NCBI GenBank assembly: GCA_963691655.1
Contig: OY829329.1
Span: 57,053,408 to 57,117,407, forward strand
Reading direction: 5' to 3'
Length of the DNA: 64,000 nt
Source of the DNA: Toxonevra muliebris
Lineage: Eukaryota > Arthropoda > Insecta > Diptera > Pallopteridae
Part shown: piece after piece, positions 12,118 through 51,000 of the stretch
Layout: each line of letters opens with the position of its first letter
Numbering within the stretch: the first letter of the stretch is position 1
The notes under the pieces: generated by a model
Seen by the model: only the letters and a program-made list of their open reading frames with translations
Database searches by the model: none
Told to the model about the DNA's origin: nothing
Made by a program: the position numbers and the translations under genes

Positions 12118-12607
12118 TATTTGACTATAATCATATTAAAATTCACACGAAAAATCGAACCAAATCTCTGACTAAAGCAGATCCAATTAAAAAAAGTCAC
12201 AGCTTGTAATTCTGCTTAATAACTTTGCTTCAGACATCAAATTCATATCTATTAAGATAAATGAATTTCTTAATAACCCCTGAAGACCCTCTTTTACCGA
12301 TTTCAGGATCATATTGTGAGAGAACTAGAGGGATTAAATTACTTACTATAAAACAGTTGGAAAATCTCACGCATAAAATTTTTGTTGCGTTATATAATCA
12401 GAACGATTATTTTGATATTCATATCAGAATTTAAATCAAAAATATACCCAAAAAAAATTAGACCAGAAATCAGATTCATATTTAGACAAAAAATGAGACA
12501 AAAATTCAAGCCTAACATTCCAATAATCCGACCTAAACTTAGACGAAAAAAAAAACATATAAGTTCAGCCCAGAAATGAGACTAAAATTTAGACTAAAAC
12601 TAAAGAT
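12118..12607. repeat. Decayed 12-bp repeat tract, family 1 (tract B, left part)
   Basis: 12118-12200 and 12430-12607 carry the same GACCAAAA/TTCAGA/ACTAAAA vocabulary as tract A. In between, 12320-12410 is a segment also found at 61255-61330 (TAAATTACT, CTATAAA, GAAAATCTC and AAAATTTTTGTTGC in the same order). A LINE is inserted at 12608 and the tract resumes at 13553. Confidence 0.6.
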
Positions 12608-13219
12608 AACTCTACAATTGAATATTTTGATAAAATAAAAAACCTTGGAATATTTTTTAGCGGAAGCCTAAATTGGGATGTACAAATCAACTGGACAGTT
12701 TCCAAAATTTATGGTGCATTACGCGGTCTAAGCCCAACCACTAAATATCTACCGTCCAGTGTCAAGCTAAAACTAGTAAAATCCTTTATTCTGCCAATCA
12801 TCCTTTATGGGTGCGAAATTTTTTCACATATGGACCAAGAGTCCACAAGAAAACTCAATGTTGCATATAACAACTGTGCAAGATACATCTTCGGTATTAA
12901 AAAACATGAACACATCTCTGACTATTCAAAACAAATAGCAGACTGGTCTTTAAATAGCCTGTTGAATTACCGAGCTTTAATATTTCTATTTAAATTAATT
13001 ACCACCAAGGAACCCAATCTATTTGACAAGTTAAACTTTACTAGAAATCAAAGGATCTTTCAACTGATCATACCTAGGCATAAGTACCTGGTCACATCTC
13101 GACAATTTTTTGTGCATGCGGTCCATCTTTGGAACTCACTAACCCTACAAATAAAGCGGACGCTTAACACCAACAACTTCAAGAATAAAGCTTTTCAATA
13201 TCTCGCTGCTCTTTATTAA
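12608..13219 (+). pseudogene. LINE ORF2 C-terminal part, intact frame
   Basis: An uninterrupted 203-codon frame to the stop at 13217-13219. It starts upstream of the first Met: STIEYFDKIKNLGIFFSGSLNWDVQI..., the NLGI...LNW motif at the end of the RT domain. LPSSVKLKLVKSFILPIILYGCEIFS follows, then RKLNVAYNNCARYIFGIKKHEHIS and RQFFVHAVHLWNSL near the C-terminus. These are typical of LINE proteins after the palm and thumb. The catalytic palm motifs are absent through 5' truncation, so it encodes nothing functional, but the clean frame suggests a fairly young insertion. Confidence 0.78.
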
Positions 13220-18626: not shown

Positions 18627-18945
18627 TTAACCCTCTCAGGATTTTCGTACACATATGTGTACATGAATTTGAACATTTTTCCTGACTGGGATTTAAATGC
18701 CAACCAAATTTTATGGTATTTTGGTATTGGCGTCTTTGTTGTGTTTTCCTCTATCGTTTGAAATTTATTTTGTTACAATTGAAGCATTACCGTTGAAAGT
18801 ATTGTGACTTTTATGGGACAACCTCACTTTTTTCTTGTGCTCGCTTTTTATTTTTTTGTATCGTCAATTTAAAAAAATTATTAAAAATACTAAATAATAA
18901 AAAGATGGGTAAAAAAAAAATTTCTTATGTAGATAGAACCTTTTT

Positions 18946-19550
18946 GTTGTGATGACTACATTTGTTCATTAACCTGTTTATATATAACTTCAAATAACGA
19001 AATTGACATGAACTTAAGTCATGACTTTGAAAATTAACATCTAGATTTAATTTTCATGGTTTCCTAAAAAACTATCATGAACTGATCGTTCAGAAAAAAT
19101 GACACCTAGAATCATTTTCTCACAAACACACACACTCTCTCATGTACTAGACTTTCAAATAACGAACTGTTATGCAGACTAGCTACAATGGGAAAAAACA
19201 ACAACATAAGTATATAGAACGGTAGTGGTAGTTTATTTTAATATCTCTATTCAATGAAAGTATTTAGAATCAAATCCGTAATTCTGGGTTATGATTTCAA
19301 ATATTAGTAGCTTATATAGGATATTGAAAGATTAAGAACTATCACTAAGATCACTGATGAGGAATTGTGGCGGATTCCGAAACGGCCGTCTGATTTGCCC
19401 GTCTCTATATGCATTGGTGTTGTGATGACTACATTTGTTCATTAACCTGTTTATATATAACTTCAAATAACGAAATTGGCATGAACTTAAGTCATGACTT
19501 TGAAAATTAACATCTAGATTTAATTTTCATAGTCTCCTAAAAAACTATCA
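18946..19550 (+). mobile_element. Retrozyme-like tandem insertion with a hammerhead ribozyme
   Basis: A 605-bp insertion flanked by AGAACCTTTTT (18935-18945) and AGAACCTTCTT (19551-19561), a 10/11 target-site duplication. Its first 132 bp (18946-19077) repeat as its last 132 bp (19419-19550) with only a few differences, a spacing of 473 bp. Between them lie about 264 bp of other sequence and a complete hammerhead motif. Partial tandem copies, target duplication, no ORF and a hammerhead match animal retrozymes and Penelope-like terminal repeats. The right end reads AACTATCA. The same octamer occurs at 19337-19344 just before the hammerhead, so the true monomer could instead be about 206 bp. 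A third partial copy is at 23809-24011. Confidence 0.72.
19348..19396 (+). ncRNA. Type I hammerhead self-cleaving ribozyme motif
   Basis: All core elements are present in order. Stem I 5' strand AGATCA (19348-19353); core CTGATGA (19354-19360); stem II GGAAT/ATTCC (19361-19365/19374-19378) closing an 8-nt loop; core GAAA (19379-19382). A very short stem III follows, formed from the palindrome ACGGCCGT (19382-19389). The cleavage triplet GTC ends at 19390, and the stem I 3' strand TGATTT (19391-19396) pairs with AGATCA over six positions, one G-U. Predicted cleavage is 19390|19391. The open stem I and tiny stem III resemble hammerheads of Penelope-like elements and retrozymes; a palindromic stem III could favour a dimeric fold. 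Activity is predicted, not shown. Confidence 0.8.
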
Positions 19551-19775
19551 AGAACCTTCTTCTGTTGATAGAGACACATTTTGTACAAGCCGGAGTATTT
19601 TAAAGCTCCCTAAATGTTTTTTTGTTTATATTTATATACCTCGCGTACGGCTAAACCTGGACAGGAAAAAATTCGTGAATAGTTTTTTTTTACTATTTGG
19701 GGGCTCCTAAATACAAAAATCAACATCTCGATTTTTTTCTACCACGGGAAGTACACATTCTCCTGAGAGGGTTAA

Positions 19776-23808: not shown

Positions 23809-23857
23809 AAATCACTGTTGAGGAACTGTGGCGGATTCCGAAACGGCCGTCTAATTT
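23809..23857 (+). ncRNA. Hammerhead ribozyme motif, probably inactivated
   Basis: Same architecture as 19348-19396, but the core CTGATGA reads CTGTTGA (23815-23821), changing an invariant A. One stem I pair becomes C-A because the 3' strand is TAATTT. GAAA, the palindrome ACGGCCGT and the GTC triplet are kept. Loss of the invariant core base should abolish cleavage. Confidence 0.7.
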
Positions 23858-24011
23858 GCCCGACTCTATATACATTGTTATTGTGATGACTACATTTGTT
23901 CATTAACCTGTTTATATATAACTTCAAATAACGAAATTGTCATGAACTTAAGTCATGACTTTGAAAATTAACCTCTAGATTTAATTTTCATAGTCTCCTA
24001 AAAAACTATCA
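23809..24011 (+). mobile_element. Second hammerhead-bearing retrozyme-like copy (about 203 bp)
   Basis: Aligns with 19348-19550 along its whole length at roughly 90% identity: hammerhead region, CTATATACATTG, GTGATGACTACATTTG, AACTTAAGTCATGACTTTG and the AACTATCA end. It is a single unit inserted in repeat tract C. A-rich flanks AAAAAAT (23806-23812) and AAAAAAAT (24013-24020) could be a target duplication but are too simple to be sure. Confidence 0.75.
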
Positions 24012-30523: not shown

Positions 30524-30768
30524 GACCTCGATAGTCTAGTGGATAGTGCACTAGACTTTCATCCAGAAGGTTGCGGGTTCGATTCCCGTCTTGGTCTGGT
30601 GGTTAGTTCTCATAAGCTTCTTATATTCACTATCGATATGAAGTGGATGAGAATTATAAGAATGTGTACAAGTACACACCTTGGTTGGTAATGGCAAAAC
30701 CACCGAGCTGATAAAAAATTGTTACACAGCCGTTGGGAATCGGCGTTAAACTGTAGGTCCTACCATCG
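30524..30768 (+). mobile_element. tRNA-derived SINE (family S1), 3'-truncated
   Basis: A tRNA-like head starts at GACCTCGATAGTCTAGTGG (A-box-like TAGTCTAGTGGATAG) and has B box GGTTCGATTCC at 30576-30586. It continues into a body shared with the copy at 49083-49352: ACCTTGGTTGGTAATGGC, CACCGAGCTGATAAAAAATT, AATCGGCGTTAAACTGTAGG. The acceptor arms do not pair well, so it is a SINE head and not a tRNA gene. The tail is cut off by the next SINE. Confidence 0.82.
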
Positions 30769-30972
30769 CCACTGTGGTCTAGTGGAAGAGTGCCAGACTC
30801 TTGTTTCTGGAGACCCGAGTTCGATTCTCGGCTTGGGTATGTTTCTTATCTATCTTTCTTTCTCCCTTCCTTTCTTTCTTTCTTTCTTGGGGCTTTGGTA
30901 CAAAAGATCTTATAGGTCGCAGTGCCTGACTTTCGAGTCGTCCTTCCTTCAAATAATAATAATAATAAAGCC
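30769..30972 (+). mobile_element. tRNA-derived SINE (family S2)
   Basis: A second tRNA-like head, CCACTGTGGTCTAGTGGAAG with B box GAGTTCGATTCTC near 30817-30829. A CTTTCTTTC microsatellite-like stretch (30851-30888) and a short body follow, ending in (AAT)n at about 30950-30968. It is inserted at the end of the S1 SINE. Body sequence is not shared with other copies in this window. Confidence 0.7.
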
Positions 30973-32496: not shown

Positions 32497-33772
32497 TATT
32501 GGGAGTATGAATGTATAAGCTCGTAATTGTGACTAACGTGCCATTTTTTTTGACATTAACAGCTATTCTATCTCGAAGAGCGTCAAAAATACTATAAGAA
32601 TTGATCTGTCAAATAATTTTCATAATTTTACAAAAGTGTTTTACTATAGCTGAAAATGTCGAATTTCGTGCCAACAAAACAACATTTGCGGGAAGTTTTA
32701 ATTTGCTTCTTCCATTTAAAGAAAAACGCAACTGAAGCACATCGTTTACTCACTGAAGCTTATCCTGACTGTGCTATAGACGTTAGAATGTGTCAGCTGT
32801 AGTATGCCCGTTTCAAAAGTGGTGATTTTGATGTTAAAGACAGGGAACGTTCAGGCGGCCCGAAAAAGTTCGAAGATGAAGAATTGAAGGCATTACTCGA
32901 AGAAGATTCATGTCAAACGCAACAAGAACTTGTAGAATCTTTAGAAGTTGATCAATCAACCATTTCTAAATGATTAAGAGCATTGGGAATGATTCAAAAG
33001 CAAGGAAATTGGGTGCCGTACGAATTGAAGCCGAGAGACGTCGAACGACGATTTTTCACATGTGAACTGCTGATTGAACGATAGAAAATCCTAGGGTTTT
33101 CTGCATCCTATTGTGACTGGCGATGAAAAGTGGATACGTTACGATAACCCAAAGCGTAAAAAATCATGGGGACCGCCCGGACATGCATCAACATCAACGG
33201 CAAAGCCGAACATACATGGATCCAAGCTCATGCTGTGTATTTGGTGGGATATGAAAGGTGTCGTGTATTATGAGCTGTTGAAACCAAATGAAACGATCAC
33301 TAGCGACCGCTACCGACAACAATTGATGCATTTGAGCCGAGCATTAAAGGATAAGAGGACAGAATATGAGAATAGACACGACAAAGTTATTCTTCAGCAC
33401 GACAATGCTCGGCCGCATGTTGCAAGGCAAGTAAAAACATACTTGGAAACGCTGAAATGGGAAGTGCTACCGCACCCGTCGTATTCTCCAGACATTGCTC
33501 CTTCTGATTACCACTTGTTTCGATCGATGACACATGGCCTGGCTAAACAGCACTTTCGTTCTTTCGAAGATCTCACAAAATGGGTCGATTCGTGGATAGC
33601 CTCAAAAGATGAGGAGTTCTTTCGACGCGGAATCCGTATGCTACCAGAAAGATGGGAAAAGGTTGTGGCTAACGATAGACAATACTTTAAAGAATAAATT
33701 TATAATCACTTTTCACAATAAATGTCCAAATTAGGAAAAAAAATACGTGTTTATCCATTCATATTCCCAATA
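32497..33772 (+). mobile_element. Full-length mariner element (dead)
   Basis: 1276 bp including TA duplications at 32497-32498 and 33771-33772. Terminal inverted repeats: left TATTGGGAGTATGAATG, right (other strand) TATTGGGAATATGAATG, continuing into TATAAGC/GATAAAC. Length and layout are standard for mariner. It is nested inside the TTAA element and carries a mutated transposase gene. Confidence 0.9.
32656..33697 (+). pseudogene. mariner transposase (DD34D), inactivated
   Basis: About 345 codons, the normal mariner length. The N-terminal part (MSNFVPTKQHLREVL..., paired helix-turn-helix region with RFKSGDFDVKDRERSGGPKKFED) has in-frame stops at 32800-32802, 32971-32973 and 33082-33084. A frameshift between 33085 and 33105 leads into an intact 194-codon frame from TGDEKW (first catalytic Asp). 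HDNARPH (second) and YSPDIAPSDYHLF (third) follow, with exactly 34 residues between the second and third Asp. WVDSWIASKDEEFF and LPERWEKVVA close the protein. The catalytic half is undamaged; only the DNA-binding half is broken. Confidence 0.92.
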
Positions 33773-41363: not shown

Positions 41364-42119
41364 TATGCATATTTTTGTTCTACATGAATTTGTATGGTAC
41401 GTTTAATTTTATTTTTGCATATAGAGATTGAAATGGTCAGATTTCATCCAAAAGAGAAAGTTGGAGTGTAAAGAAAAAAATATATATTTTGCCTACAATA
41501 TTTTTTACGTAAATTGAATATTAAATAAAATGTTTCGACACATGTATGTATATTTTTTAAATAAACTTTTATTCATCGATTGTGTAACTGGAGTAAATCC
41601 ATGATTACATATACCTATACATGTCAATTGCCAGTTGTGATGATGTATTGATGATTATTACTTTTCTCTCATTTTTTTATACACCGAATTTTTGAATGAT
41701 TTTTTCATATGGTATTGCAATTTTCATTCTATAAAAACTTTTAACTTAATACCGTCACTGGTTACATATAATTTATAAATATAAATAAATTGTCATTGCA
41801 AAAATCATTGATTCATACATTTGACAAGCAAGATTAACTAACTAAATATTATAGAATAATATTAATAAATGCAAATAATTTTAGGAATTTCCAAAGTCTG
41901 ATTTTCCATTTCAAATTCAAATTTCAAAAGAATTTAATATAGGTATAAAATATGATGTAAATATTTTTGCTTGCTTTGACAGCAGTTATTGAAGCTTTTA
42001 TGTTATTTGATTTTATTAAAATACTGAGCTTAGTTAATTTTTAACTATAAAAAAATTCTCAGAAATAATAAGCTACCTTATTTTTTCAGTGAATATATGT
42101 GAATATAATATGTTAAAAT
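41364..42119. other. A/T-rich non-coding
   Basis: No feature recognised. Confidence 0.4.
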
Positions 42120-43795
42120 TGATAAAAAAAAGGTTTGAAACGACATTATTATGGAACATGATGTAGAAAATTTACCAAAAAAACATGCTCTGAATTGGAA
42201 GATAATATGGAAAATTTAAGTGAAGAGTTGATACAAAAAAAGAAATGGTCTGAATTGGAACAGCCAGTTTCACGATGATGTGGAAAATTTGATTTTATAC
42301 AAATAAGATTTTTAACCTGGGACTTCCTATTCCATAATAATGTGAAAGATTAATAAGAAAAAAGGAGAGATTGAATGTGGAACAGTCTGCTTTATGAAAT
42401 TTGAATGAGAAATTGATCAGAAAAAAGAAAATGTCTGACTTCAAAAAGCCTGCTTAATAATAACTTGGGGAATTTTTGTGATATTAATCACAAAAATTAA
42501 GAAATCTGAGTTGTAACAGTCAGTCCACATAATAGTGGGGAAGGTTTTAATGAAAATTGTCCAGGATAAAGAAGAAGTCTTAATTGGACTTAAGATTGGG
42601 AAAAAATTGAAAGCAAATATGGTCAGAAAAATGGGAAAGTCCGAAATAAAATAGCTTTTTGTATGAAAATAAATAATATTGGGGTGATTAGAAAAAACCG
42701 AGGTCTAAATTGAAACAACCTGTTTTACGATAACATAGAAAATTTGAACAACAAAAATGTTTAGAAAGAAAAAATAATAACTTGTTTCATGATGTAAAAA
42801 ATTCAAGTGAGAAACTGATTTGAAAAAGGAAAAGATTTGGATTGGAACAGTCTATTCTATGACATTGTTGAATATTTGATAAAAAAAAGAGGTCGGTATT
42901 GAAACAGCCTATTCTATGTTAATACAAAAAAACTTTGTAAAAAAGAAGTTTGAAATGGAACATCGTGTTTCATGACAATGTAGAAATTTTGATCGAAGAA
43001 ATTTTGTGTGGAAGAAGAAGAGGTCTGAAATAAAACAGCTTGTTTCATATTAATATGAGATAATTTGAGAACAAAAATTCATCTGAAAAAAGAAAACTTC
43101 TGACTTCGAAGAGCCTGTTCAACAAAAAAATTTTCAGAAAAAACGGATGCCTGAATTAAAATAAACAGGCTATGTGGAAATTTGAAAATTTTTATTGAAA
43201 AATCGGTCCTGAAAAAAGAGATGTGAGTTGGTATAATTTTCTCATAATGGTAAAAAATTGAGTGCAAAAAGTTATCTAAAAACGAGAAAGGTTAGATTAT
43301 GAAGAGCTTGTTCAGAAAATTTTGGTGAAAAATTAACCTGAAAAATTTATGTGAAAAATTCTTTAAAAAAAATAGTGTGAAAAATTAATTTACAAGAAAG
43401 AAATATATGAATTGGAATAGTCCATTCTAAGATAATGTGGGAAATAAGAATGAAAAAATGGTCTGGGAAAAACGTAGTTTGAATTGGAACACTCTATTCA
43501 GTGTTGATGTGAATCATTAGGGAAGAAAATTAATCATAAAAACGAAGAGATTTGAATTGAATCAAAAATTGATCTGAAAAAAAGAGATCTGAATTGCAAC
43601 ATCCTTTTCCAAGATAGAGTAAAAAATTTGAGTCAAAATTTGGCAGGGAAAAGATAAGGTCCAAATTGGAACTGCCCCTTCTAGGATAATGTGGAAAACT
43701 CGAGTGCGAAAATTGGTCCAAAATAAGATTAATCTAGAACAAAATGTCAATGTCTAAACAGTGTGTTTCATCATAATCTGGAAAATCTTAGAGAA
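42120..43795. repeat. Decayed tandem array, unit about 70-80 bp
   Basis: About 20 or more degenerate copies of a unit that reads roughly GAATTGGAACAG, CCTGTTTCATGATAATGTGG, AAAATTTGAGTGAAAAATTG, then ATCTGAAAAAAGAAGAGGTCT. Anchors such as TTGGAACAG (42255, 42849), TGTTTCATGA (42780, 42970) and GATAATGTGG (43430, 43684) recur in the same order. Spacing varies because of indels. No ORF. A diverged satellite-like array not related in obvious ways to the 12-bp tracts. Confidence 0.75.
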
Positions 43796-44120
43796 AGAGG
43801 AAGTGGGGAGGGAAGATGCTTGGACCATGTTAAGTTTAAACCTTCTTAAAAATAAACAGATCTGTCCACAAAATTGTTGAAGTAATAAAAGTTTCTCTGT
43901 CTCTTGTACTGCGGGCAACTATGATGCCTGTTTTAAAGCTTCAAACCTTTTACAAGCATGCAAAATATTTAGAAATTATCTGTGCAGTTCGGATAATCAA
44001 GTAGCATAAGCTACAATGACCCTGACTCATTAGTTCTGTGCTATGCAGAAGGGTTAAATAGAATTTCAGAAATTGGATGGAAATTTCTTTTGAAAGATAC
44101 AATATCAAAATTCAACTTAA
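43796..44120. other. Spacer, nothing recognised
   Basis: No supported feature between the array and the splice-like site. Confidence 0.35.
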
Positions 44121-44216
44121 ACTTACTCATGTATTGTTGCAATTTCTCAAATGTTTTATTTCTTTCGAAAAGATATTTCTTACCTGAAAGAAAAAGAGAG
44201 AAAAATAAGAAAATAA
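44121..44216 (-). promoter_or_regulatory. Candidate recursive splice site (ratcheting point) with cryptic exon
   Basis: On the minus strand an unusually long pyrimidine-rich tract (about 44216 down to 44187, TTTTTCTCTCTTTTTCTTT) ends in CAG directly joined to GTAAGA (CAG 44186-44184, GTAAGA 44183-44178). This juxtaposed 3'/5' splice-site consensus defines ratcheting points in very long fly introns. Fifty-seven bases downstream is a perfect 5' splice site ATGA|GTAAGT (GTAAGT at 44126-44121), as expected of the short exon used to define such sites. Read as an exon, 44183-44127 is also open in one frame (KKYLFERNKTFEKLQQYM), so a 57-nt microexon is the alternative. Confidence 0.5.
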
Positions 44217-46178
44217 ATATTTATTATATGTTAAGTGTAAATTGAAATTTAATTAAAAATTCTTACAAATAGCAATAAAATTAATTAAGTTCATATAAAA
44301 AGATACAGATAGACATACTCAGACACATACACCTCGATAATTTAGTAAATTGTATTAGACAAAAGCAGCTGTTGGTTGCTGGCGTAAAAAGAAGTAGCAG
44401 TAAATTAAAAATGCTTCAAAAAAAAAAGAAGAAAAAAATACATAGTTGCAATAATGAGGATAGATAGACAAACAGAAGAAAAGAAAGACTATAGAAAAAA
44501 GACAGAACGACAGATAGAATGACATGTAGAACGTTATACAGAGCATTAGCTAGTGAAAAAGACAAGCAGGCGGGGAGACAGCCACGCACACTAAAGTGTT
44601 TAATATGACTTTTGTAACAGATTTGCGGGACATTAAAATGAAAGACACACATATGAGAAAGATAGAAAGAAAGAAAGAATGAGATAGCAAAAAAGCAGCA
44701 AAAGACACATGTGATTTTAATTAAAGAGATTCAAAGCACACACTTGAAATATACAGGACGAAAATACAATTTATGCATATACCACACTCTTTTATATATA
44801 TATAGGTACATGCACACATACACACCCTACAAATGCTTCAGCAAATAAATTCACTGTGGACAGGTTTCGACAAGCGAAATTAGTAGTTTGTAAAAAGTAC
44901 AAAAAAACTAAAAACAAACAGGAAGAAACTACAATTGTAACAACAAATTCATATGTAGCAGCAAAAGAAAAATCAAAGCATACTCTTAGGCGTTACTAAC
45001 TGCACAGTACACTTTGAGTGTACGTTTCCAATGCAGTCAGAAGACTACATTATTGGAGGGAATAGTAATCGTACTTGTACTCGAAAAAAATCTAATACTC
45101 GACTCCTTGTGGAAGAAAAAAAAATAACAAAAATTCGTTAAAGTTTGATATGAAAGTAAAAAAAAATCGTAACAAAAAACCATAGGAAAAATTGTGCTAA
45201 AGTAAAACTAAAAGTATATTTGCAATAAAATACATACACACTCACAAATACAAATACATATGTCCATACGTGTAGAACTACAAATACATGTGTACACATC
45301 CGAGAAAGATGTGTATACAAAGTAACTACTATTTGTAGTGAATCCGTGTATGTGCTAGTAAAATTTGTTATTGAACTACTAGTTTAGATATACGACTAAC
45401 TTGAACCTTGTTTATTTGTTTTTCTCGTCTGTGTGTAGACAAAGGAAAAGGACGGAGGAGGAGGCGGGGGAATAAAAAAAGAATTATGTGTGTGGTTAAA
45501 AGTATTAAGATAACAAGGTAGCAAGTAGAGTAAATTTCAATAAAACGCAAACATATGATACCCCAAAATCACAAGTGAAATTTTTGCTGCCTCAGCATCA
45601 GAGAGTAACAGTAGCCAAAACACAATCACAAGTGATCAATGAGAAAGCTAGGTACCATGAAAGACCAAATCAGTCGCAAGCAAGGCAGGCACTAGTGATG
45701 AAAGATTTCAGCAGATACAAGTGGCAGTCAAGCAGGTTGAAACTGTAGTTCAAAAAATAATTGAGTATTCCTAGGTTAGGTTGACAAATAAAAATAGATA
45801 CTAGTTACCAGTTGTTAAAACATTGAAAGGTTATAAGTAAAATAAATGTAGGAAGAGGATATATCAAGCGAACAGGGGTGAAGCAAAAAAAAACCAAAAA
45901 ACAAGTAAAATAGTTACATGCTGGCAGGTACCACATTATTGAGTTCACTTTATTTTGTTAATAGTTGTTTCTGTATATTTATGTATGTATTCATGTGTGA
46001 AGGTGCTGTGGTATGTGTCTGTATCTCTTAAGTTTCTGTTGTTATGGTAGTAAATAAAGTCGGAACGAGAAACGTATACTACATGTATTTGTTGATATTA
46101 TTAAGGGCAAGGAAAATGATAAAAAACTAGAATTATTTTGTATTTTTTTGCAATTGTAAAGGTTGTTTATTTCGGTAG
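44217..46178. other. A/T-rich non-coding
   Basis: Short hairpin GTACACT-TTG-AGTGTAC at 45007-45023. A GGAGGAGGCGGGGG purine run is at 45455-45470. No gene. Confidence 0.4.
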
Positions 46179-46297
46179 AGAAATATGTTTGTGCTTAAAA
46201 TTGAAATTTGCCAAATTTAATTATGAAGAGTGGAAGAACAAATGCGTGAAAAAAATAACCTCAGGCATGAAAAATGCTACAAAGCTTTTTGAACAAG
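46179..46297 (+). CDS. Possible internal exon, unidentified
   Basis: A 119-base segment lies between an acceptor-like GTTTATTTCGGTAG (ending 46178) and a good donor CAAG|GTATGT (46298). It is open in one frame: EICLCLKLKFAKFNYEEWKNKCVKK, then ITSGMKNATKLFEQ. Composition is more protein-like than neighbouring ORFs. I do not recognise the protein, the polypyrimidine tract is short, and strand disagrees with the site at 44.18 kb. It may be chance. Confidence 0.2.
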
Positions 46298-46740
46298 GTA
46301 TGTATATCGTTACGGAGGCAGGTACGGAAAGGTAGCTAAAATTTGTTTAGCAGCAGAAAAATTAGTCTGTCCAACTTTTATTCAGATTTCAGTAACCCTT
46401 CCACGACCGACTTCGAGTTCCTCGTATGAAAAATTCAAAAAAAAAAAAAATTAACAACGTAAGAAATGAAACTTATCAACCCAAAATAAATTGATATTTC
46501 TGAAATCATGAAAGATATCCATATTTTCAAATAAAAGTTTCCAAAAAGTGTTTAAAGCATTTGTTAATATTTTAAATCTTGTACCACCTTGTAAAACTCT
46601 AAGACTTTTGGAGCAGAATTCGTTGAATGAGCGATAGTTAGAGATGTGCATATCTCCCCAAAGATTGGTTTTCGTTTATCTACAATCTTATGTTGTTTGG
46701 TATTTGCCTTTAAATTATGTTTGCTCTTATGTTTGATTTT

Positions 46741-47390
46741 CCCCCTATTTTTTTCTTTTTTATTTCGATGTCTCTGGTCCTCTCCTATTTTCATTTCGTT
46801 GTTCTTCCCTTTTTTTTCTCTCTATTTTCCTTCTCTCTCTTGTGTTTTTCACTTTCTATTTTCTTTTTCTCTCTCTTGTTTTTCTCTCATGGGTTTCCAT
46901 TTGCCTTCTTTTTTTCTCTTCTCTCTGTCTATCTTTTCCTCTCTTTGTGCTTACTTCTTGATCTTCTTCTTGTTCCTCCTCTCCATTTTTTCTATTCAGC
47001 TCCTTCTTTTCTCCCTTCTTTCTTTCTCTTTTCAATTCCCTCTATATTTTCTATTTTCTTTATCATTTCCTCCCTCTAAGTTTTCTTCTCTCCCTTTTCT
47101 ACTTCTGCTAACTTTTCTCCTCTGTCTCTCCTCCCATTTTTGTTTTTCTTCTCTTTCTTACCCTATATATTTCTTCTAATTCACCTCCTTTTCCTTCCTC
47201 TTCTTATTTATCTCTCTTTCAATCCTTTCTCCCACTCTCTATTACTAGTTTCCCCTCAAACTTCCTCTTTTATTTCTTCTCTCTCTTTCTCTCTCTTCCT
47301 TCTTACCCTTTCTCTCCCTCAGTTTTCCCTCATCTCTTTCTTCTCTTACTTTTCTTCTTCACTCAGTCCCTTTGTACTTTTCTTCAGTAA
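46741..47390. repeat. Polypyrimidine block of about 650 bp
   Basis: Almost pure T/C on the plus strand (TTTCTCTC, CTTCTTTT, TCCCTC words, no fixed period) with scattered purines. Two long overlapping Phe/Ser/Leu-rich ORFs (to 177 codons) are compositional artefacts. Such tracts can adopt triplex (H-DNA) structure. Confidence 0.85.
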
Positions 47391-49082
47391 AATTTTAAAT
47401 GCAACATTTAAATCACTTTAAATTTTCGTGAAAAGCCACCACAAATCCTGTTTACGTATGGGCGAGTGCGCCTTATGAGCTTATTTCAAAAATACATAAA
47501 TTCTTTTATGCATTTATTTCGTTCCAAATTTTCTTTGCAGTATTCCTTTTTTCAACCACATTTTTTCGCTATACTTAACAACATTCTTAATTAATTATTT
47601 CGTGTACATATTCAAGCGCATTATAAAATTTATAGAAGTGCTTGTTAATAATAAATAAAGCAACAAACAAAAAAATTGATGTGTATAAAAAATTTTATAT
47701 AAAAAATGTATTAAAAAACGCTACCACTCGTAGATAAAAATTGCATAAAAAAGAGTGTTGCCTCAAAATGAAAAAAAAAAAATAAAGAATTAAAAAACGT
47801 GCTCTAGTCTCGATTTTTGTACTGCTGCTGCATTGTGGTTACTCACACTCACAAAAAAAAAAAAAAATAAAAAATTGCTGCCACTCCTGCCAAGTGTTGC
47901 AAGTGCTTGCAAGTTTATTAAAAATTGTTTCAAGTATACATCAATTTTCATTTTAAATTGTACCAATTTAAGGATTGGTCTGCAAACACATACACTCAAA
48001 CACACAAAAAGAGTAAATTAGATTTTGATTAAAACTTGTTTTTTTTTTTATTCCTTTTTTTTTGCTTCACAGAAATTAAATAAATATTAGAGAATATAAA
48101 ATATATATGTTGAAAAGGAAATCAACAAAATATTTAAAAATAAAAAAATAAAAAAAATAAAAAAAAAAGTTAAATGTCAAATTAAGTTGTAAGGGCAAAA
48201 TTCAGCATGACTTCGATACACTCGACTTAACTAACTTGTAACGAAACTCAAACATACTCGAATACAAATATACACATACATTTGTATAAATATGTGTGCC
48301 AGTGTGTTGGCTAAATACGCTCTAGGTAGAATAAAAAAAGACAAAAATAAAAAGAAGAAGAAGTGAAACCATTTCAGGCAACTGCATTTAATGCTCAGTT
48401 TTCTGCATGACTTCATCTCGGTGTGCGTAGGTAACACTGGCTCTTTACACAATGACGACGATATTACGCAAGGAAAAAGTACATACTACTAGGAATAAGA
48501 AAAAAAGGCAAGAAATAAATAAATAAATGAAGAGTAGAAACAACAAAATACAAAAAATAAATACAAATATAATTTGGAATAAAAAAAAGAAATAAAATTC
48601 AAGCAGCGGTAGTAAGAAGTAAGTGGGAGCAGAAAAAATATTGAAGCAAAAATGCAATTTCATAGCTTTGTATTTACTTTGCTTATGTAGCTTGAGATAC
48701 ATTTTGTTGTCCTCATAAATACAAGTATAAGCTAGCACTCATACATTCATACATTCAAACACATGAACACTTATGCAAACAAAAGTATATTATATTGTTA
48801 AATTTTAGATTTGTCAATTTCAATATTTGTTGAAATTCTTTTCTTTTCTGTGTTCTACACTTGTAATTTAAAATAAAGCGATATCAAATATTAATAAGTA
48901 TTTTGGAAAGCAACAACAAATTTAATTAATATTATATTTAAAATTTTTATATTTAAATACATTTGTACTGATTAAGAGTCAATCTTAGCCTAACTTCTCA
49001 TATCACTTTTGTTTGTATATGAATACTCGGATATAGAAATTCATGCGTGCTACAAACGACAAAAATGTACATTTGTTATAGC
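47391..49082. other. A/T-rich non-coding with poly(A)/poly(T) runs
   Basis: A14 at 47853-47866, T-runs at 48041-48062 and AAAATAAAAAAATAAAA at 48138-48169. The T-run followed by TTCACAG at 48068 resembles a splice acceptor but all frames beyond it close at once. No gene. Confidence 0.45.
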
Positions 49083-49739: not shown

Positions 49740-51000
49740 TGAAAACATTATAAGAATTGATGAAACTTTAAAAAAATATCCTAATGACTTTGACACAGAC
49801 TCTGATTGAGAATCTCTCCGAGTTTTTGTTTGAGATTTTGACTTTGGCTTTAACTGAAACTTTAAAGCCCTGACTAAGACTTTGACTAGTGATTTGGTTG
49901 ACACTCAATGCTAAAATTCGGCACTGAGTTTCTCACTAATAATGACTTAGACTGATTTTGATTACTCTAACCGACTTCGGCTAATTTTTACCCTTTTTGA
50001 CTGAATCCAATTTACTAAGATTTTGCTTGAATTGTGAAAATCTGACGGAAAATATGACGGAAAATATGACTGGAACTCTGAACAAGATTCTGACTAAGAA
50101 TTTTACAAATATTCTTATTGAGAATCTAACTGAAAATCTGACTCAGACATTGATTGTGGTTCTGACTCAGACTTTGGCTGTCTAAGGCTGACTCTAATTG
50201 AATACGAATTAGGAAAATCTGGCTCTGACTTAGACACTGAATAAGACACTGGCTAAGATTCTGACTGAGACTCAGATTAGGACTATGGCTGGGATACTTA
50301 TTGGGACTGTGATTGAAAATTTGCAAAAGCTTTGACTGAGATTGTAAATGAGAGTTTCAACGACTTAGACCGACTCAAATAACTCTGACTGATTCTAACC
50401 AATTCTGCCTGAATTTATTTAAATCCGGCTTATTGGGACTTTGACCGTGATTCAATAGAGATTCTGACTCGGATTCTGTGTTTCTGGATCAGACTCTTAC
50501 TGTCTGAGACTAACACTGACTGAATCTTCATAGAAATTCTGACAGAGTATCTGATTGTGGCTTTAAGTGGAACTCTGACTAAGTTGAATCCGATATACTG
50601 AGACTCTGACCGGGAATTCGACTGAAAATATAGCTACGGTTCGATTCAGTTTAGGCCACCCCGGTGGCTTGGTGGATGAGTGCTAGACTAGAATTCCAGC
50701 TGCCTCAGGTTCGATTCCCAGATGGGGTTGATTTCTTAAAAAATGTCCAAATGGATTGTTCTCATTAAATGAATCACTTCGGTGATTTAGTTCTTAACCT
50801 TTGCTCTGGCTCAGATTCTGAATGATTAAAACTGAAACTGATTGAATTCAAGTCACTGGGACTCTGACTATGACTCTGATTATAATCTGATTGAAAATTT
50901 TGCTGAATCGCTAACTCAGCCACTATGCTGATGCTGATTGTTACTCTCACTGAGACTCTAACTATAGACTATGACTACGATTCAGATTGAGACTACGAAA
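49740..51000. repeat. Decayed 12-bp repeat tract, family 2 (tract D)
   Basis: Dense GACTCTGACTGAG, GATTCTGACTAAG and GACTTTGACT-like words at 10-14 bp spacing, interrupted by a SINE at 50655-50805. The complement is TCAGTCAGAATC. It is built like the family-1 tracts but has a distinct consensus. Ser/Gln/Asn- or Thr/Glu/Asn-rich ORFs at 49997-50326 are translations of it. Confidence 0.7.
50655..50805 (+). mobile_element. tRNA-derived SINE (family S3)
   Basis: Head GCCACCCCGGTGGCTTGG, then TGGATGAGTGCTAGACTAG, B box CAGGTTCGATTCCCAG near 50706-50721. A short body ends near AATCACTTCGGTGATTTAG. Inserted into tract D. The head matches 40517-40588. Confidence 0.75.

Follow-up and report, generated by a model that had tools for sequence, protein, structure and literature searches.

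The closest described relatives of the element reported here are the metazoan non-LTR retrozymes, tandem repeats of small size that code for no protein and carry a type I hammerhead ribozyme (Cervera and de la Pena 2020, PMC7229834). In the portions of that source on which we draw, repeats of 150-450 bp, RNAs of 170-400 nt, a GC content below 50%, target-site duplications (TSDs) longer than 4 bp and a predicted self-paired circle are reported for them, and no LTR, PBS or PPT is described. Insects are among the groups named there as carrying retrozyme-type repeats, so their presence in an insect-like genome would not in itself be new. Animal retrozymes must borrow an enzyme, and co-occurrence makes Penelope-like elements a strong candidate for its source (Cervera and de la Pena, PMC7229834). 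Penelope-like elements have a minimal hammerhead without a real stem III, a partial tandem layout, 5' truncation, TSDs, AT-rich targets and a tail that may be present on one of the two inverted ends (PMC11167929, PMC3846280). In work with a purified Penelope-like protein from anole, both strands were cut and extended, and synthesis began at two neighbouring RNA sites, which explains the tail (PMC11167929). Two other systems invite comparison: the plant LTR retrozymes, which are non-autonomous and are modelled as passing through circular RNA, with a type III hammerhead, LTRs with PBS and PPT, and 4-bp TSDs (PMC4918200, PMC7229834); and the hammerhead satellites of newt and axolotl, in which stem III is weak and cleavage is expected to be dimeric (PMC6155905, PMC7761336).

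The element lies in a window of 64,000 nt (contig C4:57053408-57117407, the whole stretch of DNA analysed) and, judged by its sequence, is best placed as a putative metazoan-type retrozyme: it has the core features of that group, among them those listed above other than size, and a stem III of the Penelope kind. It departs from the group in its unit length (486 bp, slightly above the published sizes, which are a range and no formal rule), in having a minimal stem III as in Penelope hammerheads rather than the canonical type I motif, and in its Penelope-type insertion ends, which we did not find described for metazoan retrozymes in those portions of PMC7229834; among literature titles and abstract openings, too, we found no report of such ends for a retrozyme. 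With Penelope-like elements it has in common all of the traits given above, but it lacks a reverse transcriptase, a GIY-YIG domain and any ORF; because there is no ORF, we do not file it as a Penelope-like element. It resembles the plant elements in being non-autonomous, in carrying a hammerhead and in the circular RNA model, and differs from them in its type I hammerhead, its 11-bp TSD and the absence of LTR machinery. Unlike the amphibian satellites, it occurs in short dispersed arrays with insertion signatures, a comparison of organisation and not of sequences. We propose that the window and the genomic family to which its element belongs probably reflect a retrozyme cycle with circles and a Penelope-like helper.

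Table. Features of the element and its second copy in the window (positions are those of the window; unit positions refer to the 486-bp repeat).
Feature	Position	Strand	Remarks
Left target-site duplication AGAACCTTTTT	18935..18945	+	10/11 match to 19551-19561
Retrozyme-like insertion	18946..19550	+	605 bp; 1.28 units, beginning at ~352 and ending at 486 of the unit
5' end-repeat copy (partial first unit)	18946..19077	+	97% to 19419-19550
Type I hammerhead, 49 nt, minimal stem III	19348..19396	+	predicted cleavage 19390|19391
Palindrome ACGGCCGT across stem III	19382..19389	+	permits an 8-bp stem III between two ribozymes
3' end-repeat copy	19419..19550	+	holds both 3'-end (putative RT start) sites seen in genomic copies
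Shorter (tail-less) 3' end region	19462..19475	+	unit 393-411, by eye; 6/34 gap-free arrays, 8/9 inverted pieces
Longer (tail) 3' end AACTATCA	19543..19550	+	unit 480-486, some 1-8 nt further; 28/34 gap-free arrays
Right target-site duplication AGAACCTTCTT	19551..19561	+	10/11 match to left TSD
Second copy, 5'-truncated inside ribozyme	23811..24011	+	unit 285-486; 3' end as in the window element

A first-pass annotation of the window had described a 605-bp insertion with a 10/11 TSD, terminal 132-bp segments repeated at 473-bp spacing and no ORF, and on each of these points it was correct. Self-alignment joins 18945-19082 to 19418-19555 over 138 nt (97% identity, spacing 473), of which 132 bp lie inside the element. 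The longest stop-free run in any of the six frames is 64 codons in the window element and 52 in the 486-bp unit, i.e., neither has protein-coding capacity, as is characteristic of a retrozyme, and the GC content is 0.31 and 0.34, respectively. The window copy is about 95% identical to the unit and short of some of its bases, with its repeats spaced at 473 rather than 486 bp. As part of the overall reading proposed here, it is probably an old member of a retrozyme family that is non-coding and non-autonomous and has a unit of 486 nt. The second copy in the window covers the 3' third of the element at 95-97% identity and is decayed, its hammerhead core being broken by a change of core base A6 to U (CTGTTGA for CTGATGA at 23815-23821).

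The hammerhead itself is compact. Stem I (19348-19353 with 19391-19396) has six pairs, one of them G-U; the core consists of CUGAUGA (19354-19360) and GAAA (19379-19382); stem II (19361-19366 with 19373-19378) has six pairs, the last U-G; and stem III is reduced to the pairs A19382-U19389 and C19383-G19388, within a stem that holds the perfect palindrome ACGGCCGU. A strict descriptor (CTGANGA, stem II of at least 4 pairs, GAAA, NUH and stem I of at least 4 pairs) matched once on the two strands of the window, at 19348-19396, against a mean of 0.02 in 100 Markov-randomised windows. The single motif with every core base present that the annotation had recognised is therefore confirmed; of its pair counts, those for stem I (six, one G-U) and the minimal stem III stand, and its five pairs for stem II become six with the terminal U-G. 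The covariance-model search that it had recommended gave no match to the Rfam hammerhead models, which may or may not accept so short a stem III, either in the window at the gathering cut-off or in 18800-19700 at E<=10; the annotation had listed such an outcome among those that would speak against it. Rfam also gave snoRNA-like matches under the threshold, SNORD24 (E 0.026) among them, which we attribute to chance. In viral contigs, an exact 22-nt pattern of the ribozyme had no matches. The folding energies of the 54- and 67-nt motif were ordinary (z -0.43 and +0.25), an uninformative test; like the missing Rfam match, they count against the motif.

A DNA search of the window's own 491-Mb genome returned at least 111 matches in the best 40 scored of 2635 candidate regions, and the matches listed fall at 39 dispersed sites on six contigs. 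We read 37 of these sites; the two others are the window copy and an array at the C20 contig end. Because this sample is the best-scored tail of the 2635 candidates, it is biased to young, long copies, and the number of first-look candidate regions is the sole genome-wide figure for copy number. The family consists of short tandem arrays, most of whose 486-bp units are 99-100% identical to the reference unit, with 1.33-4.74 units per array at the 34 gap-free loci; three loci (L043, L048 and L053) were dropped from the end counts because 200-nt runs of N, taken as assembly gaps, touch their arrays. At L053 (1641-5056), two multi-unit arrays stand head to head on either side of such a run, which may be an enlarged counterpart of the inverted 5' pieces described below or an assembly join.

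The 49-nt ribozyme is identical in all 64 full units of 32 other arrays; among these arrays, 31 of the 437 positions outside the ribozyme vary and none of the 49 inside, a difference with a chance of about 0.04 by hand estimate. The loci read contain 108 intact copies over 37 loci. Of the 110 units that cover unit position 307, one in L045 has a single loop base changed and one in L056 is, by its coordinates, truncated at 299. The family is young in its host genome, and its insertion scars are still readable. The first annotation, as a non-autonomous retroelement that carries a hammerhead and is laid out in tandem, is borne out by these arrays, their TSDs and the invariant ribozyme; genomic copies retain both the core and the tandem arrangement, whose loss the annotation had named as evidence against its reading.

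If each array were the product of one monomer, such as a circular RNA, copied over several laps, its units should be nearly alike and arrays should differ from one another. Of 44 pairs of full units taken from the same array, 36 show no difference (mean 0.20 differences per pair), whereas the 1972 pairs taken from different arrays have 3.03 differences on average. We divided the alleles of 36 arrays, considering the main array alone and cutting 12 nt off each end (L065 was excluded because it is an older array), into those shared by at least two arrays and those private to one. Shared alleles were uniform across the units of an array in 23 of 26 instances and private alleles in 5 of 19 (Fisher 3e-5, a value made optimistic by the linkage of several shared alleles, 69/70 and 76/90). 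Hence changes arise in single units, and what reaches new insertions is almost always uniform, which is the pattern predicted by laps around a circular monomer. Folded as a circle, the unit reaches -130.6 kcal/mol (z -8.5), and none of 100 dinucleotide shuffles was as low. The derivation of the tandem layout from RNA concatemers or circles, suggested in the first-pass annotation, is supported by this homogeneity inside arrays, short of proof.

The same arrays could also have been copied from a linear template: a non-autonomous Penelope derivative with Penelope-type integration, whose multi-unit read-through RNA never forms a circle and whose hammerhead trims the transcript or is a passenger. 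A passage from Frangieh et al. counts in favour of this explanation, as do L033 and L039, two arrays that begin at unit 326/325 yet hold an uncut ribozyme, and the arrays with mixed units. Shared alleles are mixed within an array in the remaining 3 of the 26 instances (L041 and L054, both at an A-rich position, and L063), and the older L065 is mixed as well; mixed templates or repeat mutation do occur. However, linear copying should hand on unit-specific changes, so that the uniformity of shared alleles, in the face of private changes that do arise in single units, counts against it, and the invariance of the ribozyme does so too. We consider a linear template unlikely.

Energy evaluation suggests how a ribozyme with so small a stem III might work. 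As a single strand, the hammerhead fold has -5.0 kcal/mol and is not the predicted minimum (-11.2), whereas the double hammerhead formed by two strands has -28.9 kcal/mol, close to the optimum of -29.3; helix III is limited to two pairs unless it is dimeric. On these models, cleavage would be expected mainly between tandem units, and a lone copy like that of the window would cut poorly. Dimeric cleavage has been described for newt and Penelope motifs (PMC6155905, PMC7761336).

Traces of such cleavage may be present among the 5' ends of the arrays. Three of 43 cDNA 5' ends (L033, L039 and the inverted piece of L045) fall at unit 325/326, the predicted scissile bond (P 0.0008 for uniform ends and a pre-set site), and 13 of the 43, comprising 7 of 34 main ends and 6 of 9 inverted ones, fall in unit 299-337. 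When 48 ends are counted, unit 310/311 also has three, and some 2-nt window with at least three 5' ends appears in 36% of uniform draws; for both reasons the pile-up at 325/326 could be reverse transcriptase stalling in the ribozyme. The ends near the ribozyme fit templates that it has cut, and also stalling at its structure. Over the 87 nt of unit 356-442 there is no main-array 5' end, which may be due to chance, to sampling or to some property of the first lap.

That the hammerhead is inactive, and that the nearby 5' ends are no more than stalls at a stable structure, would agree with the pile at 310/311, the weakness of the single fold and the empty Rfam search. Against this stand the identity of all 64 full units and the 108 intact copies with one loop-base change, the near-optimal energy of the dimer fold and the three ends at the exact site predicted, and we regard an inactive ribozyme as distinctly improbable.

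The 3' ends of the 34 gap-free arrays lie at two sites only, about 80 nt apart (28 with the tail and 6 tail-less, at unit 398-411), and none lies elsewhere. The sequence of the shorter site, TTCAAATAACGAA, is found at 19462-19474 and 18989-19001 in the window copy and has a second within-unit occurrence (19154-19166); none of the 34 arrays ends at that second place. Nine of the 34 loci carry, at their 5' side, a short inverted piece in head-to-head orientation, whose outer end is at unit 393-406 in eight and at 480 in one, and whose junction with the array ranges from 5-nt overlaps to 9-nt gaps. In all nine evaluable arrays the end type of the inverted piece is opposite to that of the array's 3' end (in L031, both are swapped), a coincidence that marginal frequencies alone would produce with a chance of about 8% (hand estimate). 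Two alternative 3' ends with an inverted piece of the opposite state are the mark of Penelope-type integration, in which one of the two inverted ends is documented to bear a tail in some cases (PMC3846280, PMC11167929). Common TSD-like strings of at least 8 nt flank 21 of the 37 loci, compared with 10% of 713 re-paired flanks, and the TSDs measure 10-14 bp.

TSDs of 10-14 bp and 5' truncation are also compatible with LINE machinery, and the element might be a SINE-like passenger mobilised by a LINE, with the inverted 5' pieces arising by ordinary twin priming. The window does contain a 208-codon open stretch (12593-13219) that resembles a non-LTR reverse transcriptase in its C-terminal part and has no Pfam match. 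But twin priming leaves the outer ends of inverted pieces at varied internal sites, whereas here they are fixed at the main 3'-end sites (unit 393-406 or 480) in nine of nine cases, and the 3' flanks inspected lack a common poly-A or simple-repeat tail after a common end; mobilisation by a LINE is accordingly very improbable. Scarcely credible is a plain satellite with a fossil hammerhead that spread by unequal crossing-over, for although the arrays are tandem with a uniform unit and hammerheads do occur in animal satellites, the short arrays are scattered over no fewer than 39 sites on six contigs and show fixed 3' ends, TSD-like flanks and 5' pieces in inverted orientation, all of which indicates insertion and not expansion in place. 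We reject both satellite DNA and LINE twin priming as main explanations.

A retrozyme mobilised by a Penelope-like helper requires such elements, and the genome contains them. A GIY-YIG profile search gave two matches, L068 and L069. The first, in a 101-codon frame, was taken as a host gene because it adjoins a frame of presumably RING-like character; the second is a decayed Penelope-like element with both RVT_1 and GIY-YIG matches. With 147 of 179 candidates scored, the reverse transcriptase piece of L069 has at least 148 genomic matches, several of them in open frames of 827-866 codons that are about 85%, 65% and 43% identical to it and constitute families A, B and C. Pieces of all three contain a motif resembling a hammerhead, made up of CCTGA(A/G)GA and one further base, a hairpin and CGAAA, so that their core reads CUGA(A/G)GA with one extra base where that of the retrozyme reads CUGAUGA. 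The three families, read at L071, L072, L073 and L075-L078, also share a hairpin, CGGAG(G/A)GCAC(A/G)CCG, which lies either upstream of the ORF start or close to it.

A family B copy (C4:32218782-32222646) has an inverted left piece with a tail of 39 nt, and its right end lacks the tail and lies 74 nt beyond the predicted cleavage site; all three family C copies read stop 95-96 nt after the motif; the shorter 3' end of the retrozyme lies about 79 nt after its predicted cleavage site. The layout from ribozyme to end is thus comparable between the retrozyme and the Penelope-like families, and the sequence is not. The tail of the retrozyme, at about 80 nt, is also longer than that of family B or the 30-40 bp of Penelope elements (PMC11167929, PMC3846280). 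In blastn comparisons of the unit with pieces of families A, B and C, nothing exceeded chance or low complexity (the best was an 18-nt CA-rich stretch, E 0.002), and no helper was matched. The Penelope link suggested in the annotation is supported by the end anatomy; a common end sequence was not found in these pieces.

We suggest the following cycle. Tandem genomic arrays would be transcribed, and the hammerheads of neighbouring units would use the palindromic stem III to form pairs that cleave the transcript as dimers. The resulting 486-nt monomers would be joined into highly structured circles. A reverse transcriptase/GIY-YIG endonuclease, presumably that of a Penelope-like element, would cut both strands of AT-rich DNA, and cDNA synthesis would begin at two set positions, located about 79 and 161 nt downstream from the site of cleavage, and run for one or several laps of the circle. 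Head-to-head joining of two cDNAs, one per target strand, would then yield an array with a TSD of 10-14 bp and, in some cases, an inverted 5' piece. One specific form of this model, for and against which we see the balance as even, makes the family a circular-RNA parasite that has no protein of its own and lives on Penelope-like retrotransposons: the helper would copy the circle for up to nearly five laps, from two starts and once from each strand of the cut target, and the palindrome-paired dimer hammerhead would operate only in tandem copies. If true, the parasite reading would identify the long-sought machinery of animal retrozymes. The insertion scars of the family combine a Penelope end signature with the pattern of one monomer in many units that is expected of a circular template, and the family allows direct tests, within a single genome, of what the helper is and what part the circle plays.

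Elsewhere in the window, 33095-33697 holds a mariner-type transposase fragment (Pfam Transposase_1 and DDE_3), and tRNA-like sequences lie at 30524-30597, 30768-30839 and 50658-50729; among these, ARAGORN calls an odd one and a tRNA-Ser(AGA), and one that is just over the Rfam tRNA cut-off is absent from the ARAGORN list. Across the 6 kb of 42001-48000, the GC skew swings strongly, from +0.30 to -0.26, and so does the AT skew.
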